Part shown: positions 3,778-11,981 of the stretch, in pieces
Position numbering within the stretch: position 1 is the stretch's first letter
How the letters are laid out: every line of letters begins with the position of its first letter
From: Planctomycetes bacterium RIFOXYC2_FULL_41_27
GTDB lineage: Bacteria; Planctomycetota; Brocadiia; Brocadiales; Brocadiaceae
Assembly (NCBI GenBank): GCA_001828645.1
Contig: MHZD01000202.1
Coordinates: 1 to 12,418 of the forward strand
Direction of reading: 5' to 3'
DNA length: 12,418 nucleotides
The notes under the pieces: generated by a model
What the model was told of the DNA's origin: nothing
Database searches by the model: none
The model's input: only the letters and a program-made list of their open reading frames with translations
Made by a program: the position numbers and the translations under genes

Positions 3778-3893
3778 AAAATGTGTAACAAGCAATAAGA
3801 GAGGTCTGATGTTTATGAACTTGGACGCACAATTTTGTGAACATAAAAATACATTGTGATATGGTCTGATTTTGTACTATGTCCTGGACTTGT

Positions 3894-3910
3894 TTCAGGA
3901 TTGTTTCAGA
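3894..3910. repeat. Short imperfect palindrome
   Basis: A short element of the CCTGGACTTGTTTCAGG type, with arms CCTG / CAGG and partial inner complementarity. It resembles dispersed intergenic repeats seen in many bacteria. Its role is unknown. The surrounding 3778-4010 holds nothing else I can support. Confidence 0.25.
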
Positions 3911-4013
3911 ATCTTCTTCCAGTTTTCAGGCTAACTATAGGAGAACAACTCCAGATAAATCCGCTCTTTGAACGGAGACTAATCTTTTAATGGAGGCGAA
4001 TACTCTATCATAA

Positions 4014-4065
4014 CCCCAGCCTTCAGGCTGGGGACAAAGAGGCAAACCAAGCCGGGCTTTAGCCC
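4014..4065. repeat. REP-like palindrome pair upstream of the transposase relic
   Basis: A perfect 8-bp stem CCCCAGCC / GGCTGGGG with loop TTCA (4014-4033) is followed by GGGCTTTAGCCC (4054-4065), a palindrome with 5-bp arms. Short GC-rich palindromes of this kind are typical partners of REP-associated tyrosine transposases, and one C-terminal fragment of such a protein follows at once. Confidence 0.6.
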
Positions 4066-4082
4066 TGATACAGGATAAAAGT

Positions 4083-4235
4083 ATGGCATTTGTTAAAATA
4101 ATTTCTGTGAGTGAATCTATGCTTGACAAGGTGAGAGCATACATCAATACCCTGGAAGAACATCACAAGAAGGTTTCGTTTGCTCAGGAGTATGAGGAAT
4201 TCATCAGGAGATACAATCTTGGAAGTCATGGCTAA
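4083..4235 (+). pseudogene. C-terminal relic of an IS200-like (REP-associated) Y1 transposase
   Basis: Fifty codons run from ATG 4083 to TAA 4235. The peptide contains SVSESMLDKVRAYINTLEEH and then HKKVSFAQEYEEFIRRYNL. This matches the C-terminal signature of REP-associated transposases: 'the VSESxxxxVxxYIxxQEEHH' helix followed by 'xSFxxEFxxFLxKxxI'. The HUH nickase motif and catalytic tyrosine, which lie further N-terminal in a full protein of about 150-200 residues, are absent; the frame upstream closes at 4011 within 25 codons. It is therefore a remnant rather than an active enzyme. It is flanked by short palindromes (4014-4065 and 4230-4281), as expected for a REP/BIME locus. The family call comes from motif memory. 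Confidence 0.6.
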
Positions 4236-4281
4236 AGCCGTATTTATATTGCGGATATAATCTCCGCCATAAATGGCGGAG
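4230..4281. repeat. REP-like palindromes downstream of the transposase relic
   Basis: GGCTAAAGCC (4230-4239) overlaps the relic's stop codon and mirrors GGGCTTTAGCCC upstream. CTCCGCCAT (4262-4270) pairs perfectly with ATGGCGGAG (4273-4281) across a two-base loop, and flanking TATAA/TTATA bases extend the stem with one irregularity. Confidence 0.6.
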
Positions 4282-4311
4282 TTATAGTAACGGCATCAAG
4301 TTAATCCTGCT

Positions 4312-4399
4312 AAGTCCCCCTTAATAAAGGGGGATTCAGGGGGTTGTGTTTTTCTGTGATTCTTTACAACCCCCTTGCCCCCTTTTCTAAGGGGGATTT
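4312..4399. mobile_element. Palindromic MITE-like element, copy 1
   Basis: This 88-bp element has arms of about 34 bases. The left arm (4312-4347) begins AAGTCCCCCTTA and ends AGGGGGTTGT; the right arm (4366-4399) is its near-exact inverse, running ACAACCCCC to GGGGGATTT. Each arm also holds a smaller internal palindrome of C5/G5 blocks, so the whole can fold into a long hairpin. A second copy lies at 7423-7513. It encodes nothing and would depend on a transposase in trans. No clear target duplication is visible. Confidence 0.75.
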
Positions 4400-4418
4400 T
4401 GTGCATGCTTCCGTCTGT

Positions 4419-4463
4419 AAAACCCGCATAAATAAAATGAAAATTTCTATACAATTAAATTAC
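4419..4463. repeat. Left copy of the inverted repeat that brackets the receptor cassette
   Basis: Bases 4419-4445 are an exact 27-bp reverse complement of 7378-7404. The match continues inward to about 4463 (partner about 7360) with one gap and three mismatches, all transitions. It lies between MITE copy 1 and the receptor start codon, so it also forms the promoter/leader region of the receptor gene. A TACAAT at 4450-4455 could be a -10 box but has no good -35 partner. Confidence 0.85.
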
Positions 4464-4474
4464 GGGAAAAAATA

Positions 4475-6763
4475 ATGTTTATCTCAATTAAAAACCGGCT
4501 TATTTTCTTACTGATCGTATTTACGTTATTACCATTTATTTTGCTGAGGATTATGGCCTATCCAAGGATGCAGTCAGATCTTCAGGATGTCTTGATACGA
4601 AACCTCGATGGTATCGGACATAAGCAATCAGAATTGGTAACTACCTGGATACACGAAAGGACGAAGGATGCTCGTGTAGTTGCGAACAATCCTCTGATGG
4701 CTAAATGTGCAAAAATTACAAGAGATGACAAGGAGTATGTGGACATAGTCCAATATCTTGAAGTAGTAAAGAGCGAATATAATTATAAGGATGTATTAGT
4801 AAGTAACGATAAAGGGTTGGTAACAATCGCTTCAGCTGAAGAAAGCATAGGAAGGGATATTTCAAAGATGGATTACTTTAAACAGGCGGTACAGGGGAAT
4901 ACCTTTGTATCGAGTGTTACTCCATCTGAGATTCCCCTTATGAATGAATTTGGAGAGAAGGAACTGGGCGTGCCGACCATGTTTGTTTCCACGCCGATGA
5001 AAGACAGGGATGGGGTTGTAATTGGTGTTGTCGCCTTGAGGATCGATGTTGGTGCGTTGAACGAATTGATGTTGAGTCTTAAGCTGGGGCATACGGGTGA
5101 GACGTATCTCGTGAATAAAGACGGATACATGATCACAGAATCAAGGTTTACGGCGCATCTGAAAGAGATGGGATTGGTGAAAAGGAGATGCGCATTAGAA
5201 TTGAAGTTGATTAATAGGGAAACAGGCGAGTTGACCAATGGAGTTAGAGAGTGTGTCGCCGGCAATAATGGCTTTAATGCAAAGGGCTATAAGGATTACA
5301 GCGGTATCACGGTGTTGGGTGTATGGAGGTGGCTGCCGGAGTTTAATTGGGGCGTTATAGCAGAAATTGACAGGGATGAGGGTTATGGGGCTGCCTATAA
5401 TCTTAAATATATTGTGAGTTCTATATTGCTGGTGCTGGCATTTCCGATAGTGCTGGTGGCGTACTTTATCGGTAGAAAGGCTTCGATACCGATTATAAAG
5501 CTGAAAGAAGTAACTGAGAAGATGGCATCGGGGGATTTAACTCAAAGAGTAGACATAAAGAGAGAAGATGAGATTGGCGTATTGGCAAATTCCTTTAACG
5601 CCATGGCAAAGTCCCTGGATGAAAAGACGAAGGAGATCGCTGCGTCAGAGAAACGATACAGGGAATTGGTTAGCTCTGTAAAGGAAGGTATCTACCAATC
5701 AGAGCCTGGTGTGGAGGGTGTATTTACCTTTATTAACAATGCGGGCGCAGAGTTGTTGGGATACAGCAGACCGGAAGAAGTAATCGGGACGAAGGTAAAA
5801 AATATATATGTGGATTCGGAAGACAGAAGAAAACTTTGCGAGAAACTCGATAAAGACGGGGTCTGGAGGGAGTTTGTATCACTTTGTAAAAGAAAAAATG
5901 GCGAGAATTTCTATGCAGAGCGTACAAGCAATTTGCTAAGGGACGGGAAAGGAAATCCGGTTGCTATTTACGGAGTGATTCGTGACATCTCGGAAAGAAA
6001 AAAGGCAGAAATGGAGATTGTCGAATCCGAAAAGAAATATCGTATGTTGTTCAATTCACTAAAAGAAGGCGTTTATCAATGCGAACCAGAAGTGGATGGG
6101 GTGTTTACATGGATAAATCAGGCAGGCGCTAAAATACTTGGTTATAAATCTCCTGAAGAAGTGATCGGAACAAAGGTGAAGGATATTTACGTAAATCCTG
6201 ACGACCGTAAAAAAGTAGTTGAAAAGTTATTAAAAGAAGGTGGATGGAAGGATTTTGTATCTTTCTGCAAGAGGAAGAACGGCGAGAGGTTTTATATGGA
6301 ACGGACGTCCAGTCTGGGTACCGATGACAAGGGTAAACCTATTCGTATTGAAGGAATATTTAGAGATATTACGGAGCGGAAGAAACTGGAGGAGGAACTG
6401 CAAGAATCCGAGAGGCATCACAGGCAATTGTTGAACTCGTTGAAAGAGGGGATATATCAGTGTGAACCTGCAGAAGATGGGGTATTTACGTGGATTAATC
6501 AGGCAGGGGCAGAGATACTCGGTTACAGTTCACCCGAAGAAGTTGTAGGAACGCGAGTAAAGGATGTATATGTTAATCCCGACGACAGAAAAGAGTTGGT
6601 CGAAAAGTTGGGAAAGGAAGGGATATGGAGAGACTTTACTTCCTATTGTAAGAGAAAGAATGGTGAGCGCTTTATTTCTGAAAGGACATGTAATCTTGTA
6701 CGTGATGAAAACGGTAAGTCGATCAGAATTGAAGGTGTATTTCGGGATATAACGGAAAGATAA
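4475..6763 (+). CDS. Membrane receptor: dCache, HAMP and three tandem PAS/PAC domains, no output domain
   Basis: This 762-residue sensor spans the inner membrane. Helix 1 is at about 8-28. A double-Cache-type periplasmic ligand domain spans about 35-305, with SIGRDISKMDYFKQAVQGN typical of the family. Helix 2 is at about 312-333. HAMP spans about 334-388 (ASGDLTQRVDIKREDEIGVL). Three PAS/PAC units follow at about 395-508, 521-635 and 650-762, on an exact 127-residue period. The last ends in RDITER, right before the stop codon. No histidine kinase, GGDEF, methyl-accepting or phosphatase domain follows; reading past the stop gives no kinase sequence, so an obvious truncation by frameshift is not seen. 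It must signal through partners if functional. GGGA seven bases before ATG 4475 supports the start. The next gene begins 49 bases later, probably in the same transcript. The ligand is unknown. Confidence 0.9.
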   Translation: MFISIKNRLIFLLIVFTLLPFILLRIMAYPRMQSDLQDVLIRNLDGIGHKQSELVTTWIHERTKDARVVANNPLMAKCAKITRDDKEYVDIVQYLEVVKSEYNYKDVLVSNDKGLVTIASAEESIGRDISKMDYFKQAVQGNTFVSSVTPSEIPLMNEFGEKELGVPTMFVSTPMKDRDGVVIGVVALRIDVGALNELMLSLKLGHTGETYLVNKDGYMITESRFTAHLKEMGLVKRRCALELKLINRETGELTNGVRECVAGNNGFNAKGYKDYSGITVLGVWRWLPEFNWGVIAEIDRDEGYGAAYNLKYIVSSILLVLAFPIVLVAYFIGRKASIPIIKLKEVTEKMASGDLTQRVDIKREDEIGVLANSFNAMAKSLDEKTKEIAASEKRYRELVSSVKEGIYQSEPGVEGVFTFINNAGAELLGYSRPEEVIGTKVKNIYVDSEDRRKLCEKLDKDGVWREFVSLCKRKNGENFYAERTSNLLRDGKGNPVAIYGVIRDISERKKAEMEIVESEKKYRMLFNSLKEGVYQCEPEVDGVFTWINQAGAKILGYKSPEEVIGTKVKDIYVNPDDRKKVVEKLLKEGGWKDFVSFCKRKNGERFYMERTSSLGTDDKGKPIRIEGIFRDITERKKLEEELQESERHHRQLLNSLKEGIYQCEPAEDGVFTWINQAGAEILGYSSPEEVVGTRVKDVYVNPDDRKELVEKLGKEGIWRDFTSYCKRKNGERFISERTCNLVRDENGKSIRIEGVFRDITER

Positions 6764-6812
6764 AGCATGTATTTAGATAAATTAAAATACACTGAACGAG
6801 AAGTAAAGAATT

Positions 6813-7346
6813 ATGGGAAATGAGTGCGTTAAGGGTTTATCCGTCAATGCAAAGACCCTGATTCTTATATTGTTGTTTGTGAATGTTGGGTTTGCAACAA
6901 AGATGATTAATAAGTATTATGCAATGAAGGAATCGGGATACATTAGGGAAAAGACTTTCCATGAACAGCTCCAGCAAAGGGTAATGAAATCTTTTGGTTC
7001 TGTGGAAGAAATGAATAAGATGATTTCTGACATTACGCGGCAAAAAGAGGATGCTGAGAAGGTCGCGAGTTCTGTTAGAGAACAAGGTGAACAGTTAAAG
7101 TTTGTAAACAAAAAACTCGAAGATGCAAAGGCAAAGCTGGAGGAAGAAAAGGCCCGATTGCAAAAGGAAATATGGGAACAAGAAGACTCGCTCTCCAAAG
7201 CAAAGAAGGTGATGGGTGACAAGGATTATACGATTAAGGAACTTATGAATAGCTTAGAAACGGCAGAAAAGAAAACGGCTGCTTTGAAGAAACAACTTGA
7301 AGAACACTCAAAGACACCCGGCGCTTGGAGCCTCCCCCATCAATAA
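6813..7346 (+). CDS. Membrane-anchored coiled-coil protein of unknown function
   Basis: This 177-residue protein belongs to no family I recognise. Residues 14-32 (KTLILILLFVNVGFATKMI) form one hydrophobic helix preceded by a lysine, fitting an N-terminal anchor or uncleaved signal. Residues about 65-165 are strongly charged with heptad character and almost no proline or glycine, predicting a long coiled coil. The tail (TPGAWSLPHQ) is uncharged. It lies 49 bases after the receptor on the same strand, and both genes sit inside the same inverted-repeat boundary, so co-transcription is likely. Coiled-coil pairing with the receptor's HAMP or PAS linkers is possible, but that is inference. GAGAAG about 12 bases upstream is a modest ribosome site; ATG 6847 would remove part of the anchor and is less likely. 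Confidence 0.8.
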   Translation: MGNECVKGLSVNAKTLILILLFVNVGFATKMINKYYAMKESGYIREKTFHEQLQQRVMKSFGSVEEMNKMISDITRQKEDAEKVASSVREQGEQLKFVNKKLEDAKAKLEEEKARLQKEIWEQEDSLSKAKKVMGDKDYTIKELMNSLETAEKKTAALKKQLEEHSKTPGAWSLPHQ

Positions 7347-7359
7347 AGAAAGTATCATG

Positions 7360-7404
7360 GTAACTTGATTATATAAGAATTTTCATTTTATTTATGCGGG
7401 TTTT
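7360..7404. repeat. Right copy of the cassette-bracketing inverted repeat
   Basis: Bases 7378-7404 are the exact reverse complement of 4419-4445, and similarity continues inward to about 7360. It starts 14 bases after the coiled-coil gene and ends 18 bases before MITE copy 2, mirroring the order found on the left side (MITE, repeat, genes). Confidence 0.85.
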
Positions 7405-7422
7405 GGGTAGTGGCAGACAAAA

Positions 7423-7513
7423 AATCCCCCTTAAAAAGGGGGACTCAGGGGGCTGTCAAATACTCTGATAGAAAGAATACAACCCCCTATATCCCCCTTT
7501 GCTAAGGGGGATT
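7423..7513. mobile_element. Palindromic MITE-like element, copy 2
   Basis: This 91-bp copy of the element at 4312-4399 has a left arm beginning AATCCCCCTTA and a right arm (7479-7513) that is its imperfect inverse, ending AAGGGGGATT. Small differences shared between the left arms (CTCAGGGGG or TTCAGGGGG) suggest the same orientation as copy 1. It ends 18 bases before the receiver gene, so its hairpin would lie just upstream of that gene's ribosome site, or could act as a terminator for the coiled-coil gene. Confidence 0.75.
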
Positions 7514-7531
7514 AACTTGTGAAAGATTTTT

Positions 7532-11795: not shown

Positions 11796-11981
11796 TGCCA
11801 CAAAGTCGCTAAGATACGGAGAAATAAGTAACAGTTCACCCCCTCCCCTAACCCCTCCCACCAAGGGCGGGGAATACTCATTGTTCCCTTGTATTCCTCC
11901 TCCTTGATGGGGGAGGTTTAGGTGCGGGTGAACTGTTACGAAGATAATGTTTTGTTTGTGGCTTTGTGTCTTAGTGGCATA
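11796..11981. repeat. Outer CACAAAG-type inverted repeat, split by an inner element
   Basis: TGCCACAAAGTCGCTAAG (11796-11813) on the left and, on the opposite strand, TGCCACTAAGACACAAAG (11963-11981 region) on the right are imperfect inverted copies. Both resemble the dispersed CACAAAG/CACAGAG family seen near 2930 and 10518. Confidence 0.5.
11828..11939. mobile_element. 112-bp palindromic MITE-like element with 14-bp perfect terminal inverted repeats
   Basis: The ends GTAACAGTTCACCC (11828-11841) and GGGTGAACTGTTAC (11926-11939) are exact inverse copies. Inside, CCTCCCCTAACCCCTCCC and a G-rich partner extend the pairing with some mismatches up to GGAATAC / GTATTCC, so nearly all of it can fold into one hairpin. 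It is non-coding and belongs to a different family from the 4312 and 7423 elements. No direct target duplication abuts its ends. Confidence 0.75.

Follow-up and report, generated by a model that had tools for sequence, protein, structure and literature searches.

Separate insertions of short dispersed elements, probably related to IS91-type transposons, on both sides of a receptor gene pair in an anammox planctomycete

Members of the IS91 family typically insert without target duplication. In eukaryotes, non-autonomous Helitrons lack a transposase, have one end in common with an autonomous rolling-circle element and carry bodies of various kinds. Here we describe two short elements, A and B, in a 12,418-nt stretch of DNA (the window) from Planctomycetes bacterium RIFOXYC2_FULL_41_27 (contig MHZD01000202.1), where they lie before the gene of a dCache-HAMP-PAS receptor and after the adjoining gene of a coiled-coil protein. 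IS801 of Pseudomonas syringae (IS91 family) is reported to give one-ended miniature derivatives of 229, 360 and 679 nt, which retain its right end and start at a tetranucleotide resembling the target, the target tetranucleotides including GAAC and CAAG (PMC3189936). For ISCR1, the oriIS is described as lying downstream of the transposase gene, and one copy of about 100 bp is said to be enough to mobilise adjacent DNA (PMC13023784). Comparison with related genomes showed that the repeats in the window are two opposite-orientation copies of a short dispersed element, inserted separately and at different times. Taken together, the data make it likely (probability roughly 0.8) that an IS91-type HUH/Y2 transposase, acting in trans, moved these non-autonomous elements in separate insertions, and that the two genes were never carried.

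A preliminary description of the window had reported that 4419-4445 is the exact reverse complement of 7378-7404 over 27 nt, which was confirmed by direct comparison; the inward extension it mentioned was also found, giving a 45-nt inverted repeat (4419-4463 and 7360-7404) with identity at 40 of 45 positions. The palindromes it had placed beside the repeats are both present (at about 4312-4399 and 7423-7513, one just outside each repeat copy), but they are not features of their own. When the palindrome and repeat of element A were used as the query, 55 matches were obtained in the own genome (1,544,939 bases, 58% complete), some of which were the palindrome matching itself on the opposite strand, and merging and alignment left 45 places. 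At most of these the palindrome and the 45-mer occurred together and in the same order, indicating that they are the body and the 3' end (tail) of one element and not two nested features; by eye, a recognisable tail was missing in about ten. The element does not include the final 7-8 nt of the 45-mer (4456-4463 and 7360-7367), which represent the insertion target. Folding of 4300-4470 with DNA parameters was better than that of all 200 shuffled sequences (z of -4.7), and compensatory changes were found in 0 of 29 pairs of the palindrome in the 16 copies compared. There was no Rfam match at gathering cut-offs within the window, and a distant-mode search of phage and plasmid collections at the default E-value gave no match to the element. 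Near the window end (11839-11930) a further G/C-rich palindromic repeat of similar look was observed, without the tail. A second palindromic repeat, CTTCGTCGTGAGCTCAGTCGAACGA, was seen at the same point inside the palindrome of the copies at L016, L029, L033, L036 and L038 (loci and genomes are given under our own L and G numbers) and in mirror position in other copies, as if nested or inherited.

From their geometry, two inverted copies around two whole genes, the preliminary description had taken the receptor and coiled-coil genes for a discrete cassette, mobilised or invertible and bounded by the repeats. The geometry is the one argument for this explanation, which is close to untenable in view of the relatives. 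The neighbourhood consists of genes for an HPP membrane protein, the receptor, the coiled-coil protein, a response regulator and a FocA-type formate/nitrite transporter, in this order. In a first collection of relatives' receptor loci (L051-L069, 19 among the matches listed), the order HPP-receptor-coiled coil was kept in 15, and 14 of those also had the response regulator; L065, L068 and L069 contained only receptor-like genes, and in L060 the contig end precedes HPP. Among the comparable gaps, the element was absent from all 15 at site A and from 14 of 15 at site B. A second, named collection, which probably overlaps with the first in some genomes, contained 51 receptor loci, 17 of them with all five genes and with both gaps measurable; these had gaps of 70-123 nt (A) and 17-39 nt (B) as against 700 and 188 nt in the window. 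All 17 pairs of gaps are too short for an element, and therefore both sites are empty there. The named loci include Candidatus Brocadia, Jettenia, Loosdrechtia and Scalindua, which identifies the relatives as anammox planctomycetes. Thus, relatives without the repeats keep the same gene order, and the joint presence or absence of the genes and both repeats that a cassette would need was not observed in them.

The arrangement in the window is not exceptional either. Among the 42 copies in the own genome scoring above 60 bits, ten neighbouring pairs shared contigs, five with their tails inward as in the window, three divergent and two tandem, so that inward pairs are common. The preliminary description had said beforehand that many solo copies elsewhere, together with relatives carrying the genes without the repeats, would refute a cassette; both were found when the genome and its relatives were searched. 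Its alternative, that both repeats are copies of a larger dispersed family inserted independently, is supported by the many solo copies and by the empty sites in relatives, and the latter already refute a cassette as the origin of the arrangement.

The two insertions also differ in age. At L060 (G006; L273 in the second collection), 61 nt identical to element B were found in the same gap between the coiled-coil and response regulator genes, with the tail half replaced. At L312, which contains HPP and the receptor start and which we took, by inference, to come from the same assembly as L060/G006 (Brocadiaceae isolate S40-1), site A was empty, ending TTTTTGTTAAATTACGGAG. Because a remnant of B is present in L060 while site A is empty in L312, the insertions should be of different age. 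Judged from these comparisons, B was probably present before the window and L060 lineages parted, and A either came later on the window line or was lost cleanly from the other; with either history the pair did not arrive together. The two genes would then never have been carried and simply stand between two insertions. Beside element A (4456-4477), the ribosome-site region of the receptor gene reads CGGGAAAAAATAATG, compared with mostly CGGAGAAAAATAATG in relatives; insertion A may have altered receptor expression.

Precise junctions were obtained at seven sites (A, B, L073, L117, L161, L166 and L167), at which the target was kept once, on the tail side. The insertions at the filled and empty sites A, B, L117, L161, L166 and L167 measured 86 to 617 bp. 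In the comparison of L073 with L074, the empty site (L074) reads CTGTT^AAATATAAAACTCC and the filled site CTGTT[CGAGTTA...CTATACAAT]AAATATAAAACTCC. The element supplies its own CAAG- or CGAG-like start. The left and right 7-mers were CGAGTTA and AAATATA at L073, and TGAATTA and CAAGATA at L167. As these left 7-mers are not copies of the target, ordinary target duplication is excluded at both sites. At A, B, L117, L161 and L166 the junctions were precise as well, with a start and target too alike, or a left neighbour too altered, to judge duplication from these sites alone; a small indel was present in the comparison of site A with L054, and the left flank of L117 was weakly matched. Pairs with a left-flank score below 50 were set aside, and the later round of 152 pairs left out L001, L050, L073, L043 and the window, which had been covered in an earlier round.

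These junctions bear on a second explanation, that the element is a classical miniature inverted-repeat transposable element (MITE), moved by a DDE transposase that duplicates 7 bp of target. CAAGTTA stands on both flanks of site B and the centre of the target, AANTT, forms a palindrome, as such an element would have it, and a target-duplication model was first suspected at site B; it was dropped after L073/L074. The additional left 7-mer is no copy of the target at L073 and L167, and in the family alignment the element ends were not inverted repeats of each other. A classical MITE is therefore very unlikely, and the label MITE used in the preliminary description does not apply in its usual sense, as no terminal inverted repeats were found and there was no target duplication where this could be decided. 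In 32 of the 45 hairpin copies the start could be parsed, giving CAAG in 13, TAAA in 4, TAAG and CGAG in 3 each, and others singly. The elements combine a 5' start resembling the target with a constant end, as IS91-type elements do.

It was found that the tail is widespread. A 26-mer of the repeat, with up to 3 mismatches, had at least 42 occurrences in the own 1.54-Mb partial genome, and by the same search tails were present in at least 16 of 24 genomes, the own included; the backwards control gave 0 matches among the matches listed for the 24 genomes. A profile of 118 distinct tails (up to 4 mismatches in 22; the loci had been fetched for matching the element, the tail or the receptor and are not a random sample) was sharply conserved from about CCCGC to TATACAAT, where conservation stopped. 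3' of this end a 7-mer NAANTTA was preferred, followed by background. The bodies upstream of the tail differed; they included the palindrome with C5/G5 found in the window, a CCCCTCTTGGGAGGGG type, a AAACAAAGTTTGTCC type and others. For 15 of the 118 tails, no other copy had upstream DNA that could be aligned as far as the tail at the chosen threshold. At L018 (3582-3791) and L035 (57-298) tandem elements were observed, one beginning directly at the tail end of another, which is expected if the CAAGTTA start of the element doubles as a target. G027, from another family of the order, contained at least 19 tails at up to 3 mismatches, most of them ending CTATACTAT; the tail would accordingly be older than the families or be moving between them. 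A 1.67-kb stretch common to two G011 tails, considered as an autonomous element, turned out to be a duplicated gene segment running past the tail.

Matches to Y2_Tnp were found in 9 of the 24 genomes. At two of the 20 Y2 loci scanned, L202 (G006) and L198 (G003), the exact 18-mer tail core was located at the element end. Both proteins contained Y2_Tnp and Zn_Tnp_IS91 domains and no helicase domain in the family scan, and they scored 250.9 (L202) and 209 bits (L198) with the NCBIfam IS91 transposase model, compared with a cut-off of 125. The two elements, each of about 1.6 kb and both from congeners, gave an alignment of 1603 columns with 81% identity that runs from the tail with its target 7-mer to GTTAAGTTC, so that their start in tail orientation is GAAC. 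The L202 protein has HLH and YLAKY motifs, which we take to be the HUH and two-tyrosine motifs; the transposase gene of L198 is broken. Similar but different motifs, TTGAAATTCCTnnACATT, were seen at six other Y2 loci, namely on the minus strand at 966-1009 in L195, L196, L197, L200 and L207, and three times on the plus strand in L193. Since about 14 matches per shuffled set are expected by chance at up to 5 mismatches, only the shared position makes the first five suggestive.

A third explanation is a mini-element of the IS200/IS605 type (Y1), comparable with palindrome-associated transposable elements (PATEs) or repetitive extragenic palindromic (REP) elements. It would fit the hairpin body, the lack of duplication and the directional ends, and all 7 genomes searched within the genus have Y1 genes; a Y1-related remnant lies beside element A. 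Among 30 Y1 loci (a selection of the 45 matches listed), however, the exact tail core occurred only at L073, as a later insertion absent from L074, and the tail as an element end is carried by IS91-type genes instead. With the sole core-bearing Y1 locus being a secondary insertion, a Y1 transposase was rejected as the mobiliser, and this explanation is regarded as improbable.

The window copies are thus best read, from sequence comparison, as non-autonomous rolling-circle relatives of IS91-type elements. The shared ends suggest that a transposase of the L202 type moves them, and the constancy of the tail and its place beside the target suggest that it is the initiation end. An IS91-type HUH/Y2 transposase would nick at the constant tail, an oriIS-like end (...CCTATACAAT followed by NAANTTA); one strand would be peeled off or copied as far as a start (ter) resembling CAAG or GAAC, and joined 5' of a NAANTTA-like target without target duplication. 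In this way elements would have been placed in a conserved anammox gene cluster, one ahead of the receptor gene and one behind the coiled-coil gene.

Several observations weigh against this interpretation. There was no Y2 gene match in the own genome, which is 58% complete, and the exact tail core was limited to the two Y2 loci mentioned. In both of these elements (2 of 2) the tail is upstream of the transposase gene, opposite to ISCR1; in our judgement this is a matter of anatomy and does not define the family, which is set by the transposase. Insertion is site-specific, but among 125 tails (those with at most 2 mismatches in the 18-mer; 144 had at most 3) the target tetranucleotides, with TAAA in 41, CAAG in 31, AAAT in 12 and GAAC in 4, are broader than the published IS801 set. 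The junction comparisons of L043, L210 and L240 (L043/L091, L210/L223, L210/L155 and L240/L249) were ambiguous and lay in repeat-like DNA.

The window elements follow the same rules as the IS801 derivatives, with a constant end and a start at a target-like tetranucleotide, and insertion without duplication was likewise seen here; GAAC and CAAG occur among the targets, within a broader, NAANTTA-like set. The IS801 derivatives are continuous fragments of IS801, whereas many bodies here have no relation to the element that encodes the transposase, are often palindromic and reach high copy numbers. One-ended transposition from a single essential end would be shared with ISCR1 and other oriIS-terIS elements; unlike in ISCR1, the tail precedes the transposase gene, and no resistance genes were noticed around the copies in the window. 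Like non-autonomous Helitrons, the elements lack a transposase, have varied bodies and match a rolling-circle autonomous element at one end, but they are bacterial and much shorter, and the IS91-type transposase lacks a helicase domain in the family scan. They resemble PATEs and REP elements in being short, palindromic, non-autonomous and intergenic, with a proposed transposition of the single-strand type, and differ in that no Y1 element with these ends was found among the 30 Y1 loci.

The insertion at site A is larger than element A itself, which forms its end (Table 1). Within it, a match to 4102-4284 was found at G003:C45, where it overlaps a Y1_Tnp gene, and 4221-4290 and 4011-4069 are repeated elsewhere. 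A small open reading frame (4083-4232) had no Pfam match, its relation to Y1 coming from the DNA matches. The 617 bases could have entered in one event, by one-ended transposition that stopped at a surrogate GAAC start, which would explain the exact junction, or by stepwise insertion. The part between the HPP and receptor genes outside element A (3839-4296) was seen to hold further repeats, including IS200/IS605-type pieces, parts of which are repeated in congeners.

Table 1. Positions of the elements, their parts and the neighbouring genes in the window
Feature	Position	Strand	Basis
Element A, non-autonomous mini-element of 159 bp, starts CAAGTTAATCC, ends CTATACAAT	4297..4455	+	Family alignment, boundaries, right junction against empty sites
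Element B, mini-element of 152 bp, starts CAAGTTAATCCCCC (element strand)	7368..7519	-	Both junctions against empty L053 and L054; remnant in L060 at this site
Tail of A, the constant 3' end (proposed to be oriIS-like)	4419..4455	+	118-tail profile; 18-mer core common to L198 and L202 element ends
Tail of B	7368..7404	-	Repeat match and 118-tail profile, as for A
Palindromic body of A	4312..4399	+	Repeat comparison, folding, copy alignment
Palindromic body of B	7423..7513	-	Repeat comparison, copy alignment
TAAATTA, the 7-nt target of A, retained from the unfilled site	4456..4462	+	Same sequence in most of the empty loci compared
CAAGTTA (element strand), the 7-nt target of B; L053 and L054 have TAAATTA	7361..7367	-	Empty-site comparison
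Whole 617-bp insertion at site A, starts GAACATA, element A at its end	3839..4455	+	Exact junction against L051, L052, L053 and L055; small indel against L054
Fragments related to Y1 elements (IS200/IS605 type) within the site A insertion	4011..4290	+	DNA matches
dCache-HAMP-PAS receptor gene, ancestral at this place	4475..6763	+	Gene order in relatives
Coiled-coil protein gene, ancestral at this place	6813..7346	+	Gene order in relatives

Two further observations concern the family as a whole. L134 and L181 have orthologous-looking flanks and the tail at the same point, with different upstream bodies, which could reflect either body exchange or repeated insertion at one target. In the single-contig chromosomes G016 and G018 the tail orientation clustered by arm, 33 of 41 and 17 of 19 tails fitting two arcs after same-orientation neighbouring tails within 6 kb were collapsed. 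In a post hoc two-arc permutation the p values were 0.009 (G016) and 0.034 (G018), to which gene-strand bias may contribute. With respect to GC skew, tails were opposite the G-rich strand in 35 of 47 cases in G016 (p of 0.001) and in 14 of 21 in G018 (p of 0.19, not significant). The arm-wise orientation may reflect insertion into single strands at the replication fork, or gene-strand bias.

More broadly, and at somewhat less than even odds, we tentatively propose that anammox bacteria (Brocadiaceae-type relatives and at least one genome from a different family, G027) host a prokaryotic counterpart of non-autonomous Helitrons, in which an oriIS-like mobility tag of about 40 nt is repeatedly joined by one-ended transposition to unrelated, often palindromic bodies, the 617-bp insertion being one such capture. 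The new and unusual point here is that many unrelated bodies share only the end with an element that has an IS91 transposase. No description of these elements was found in the open-access literature searched, mostly at the level of listings. Likewise, no open-access report was found on IS91 together with Brocadia, and none of the open-access articles found on miniature inverted-repeat elements and anammox concerned anammox genome repeats, going by their titles.

For the locus itself, a false lead has been removed, as the receptor pair is not a cassette. For the anammox planctomycetes, the results point to a large population of rolling-circle-type mini-elements in their genomes. The precise insertions, some of them with empty counterparts, make this population a natural resource for studying how IS91-type elements choose their targets, capture DNA by one-ended events and prefer one strand over the other.

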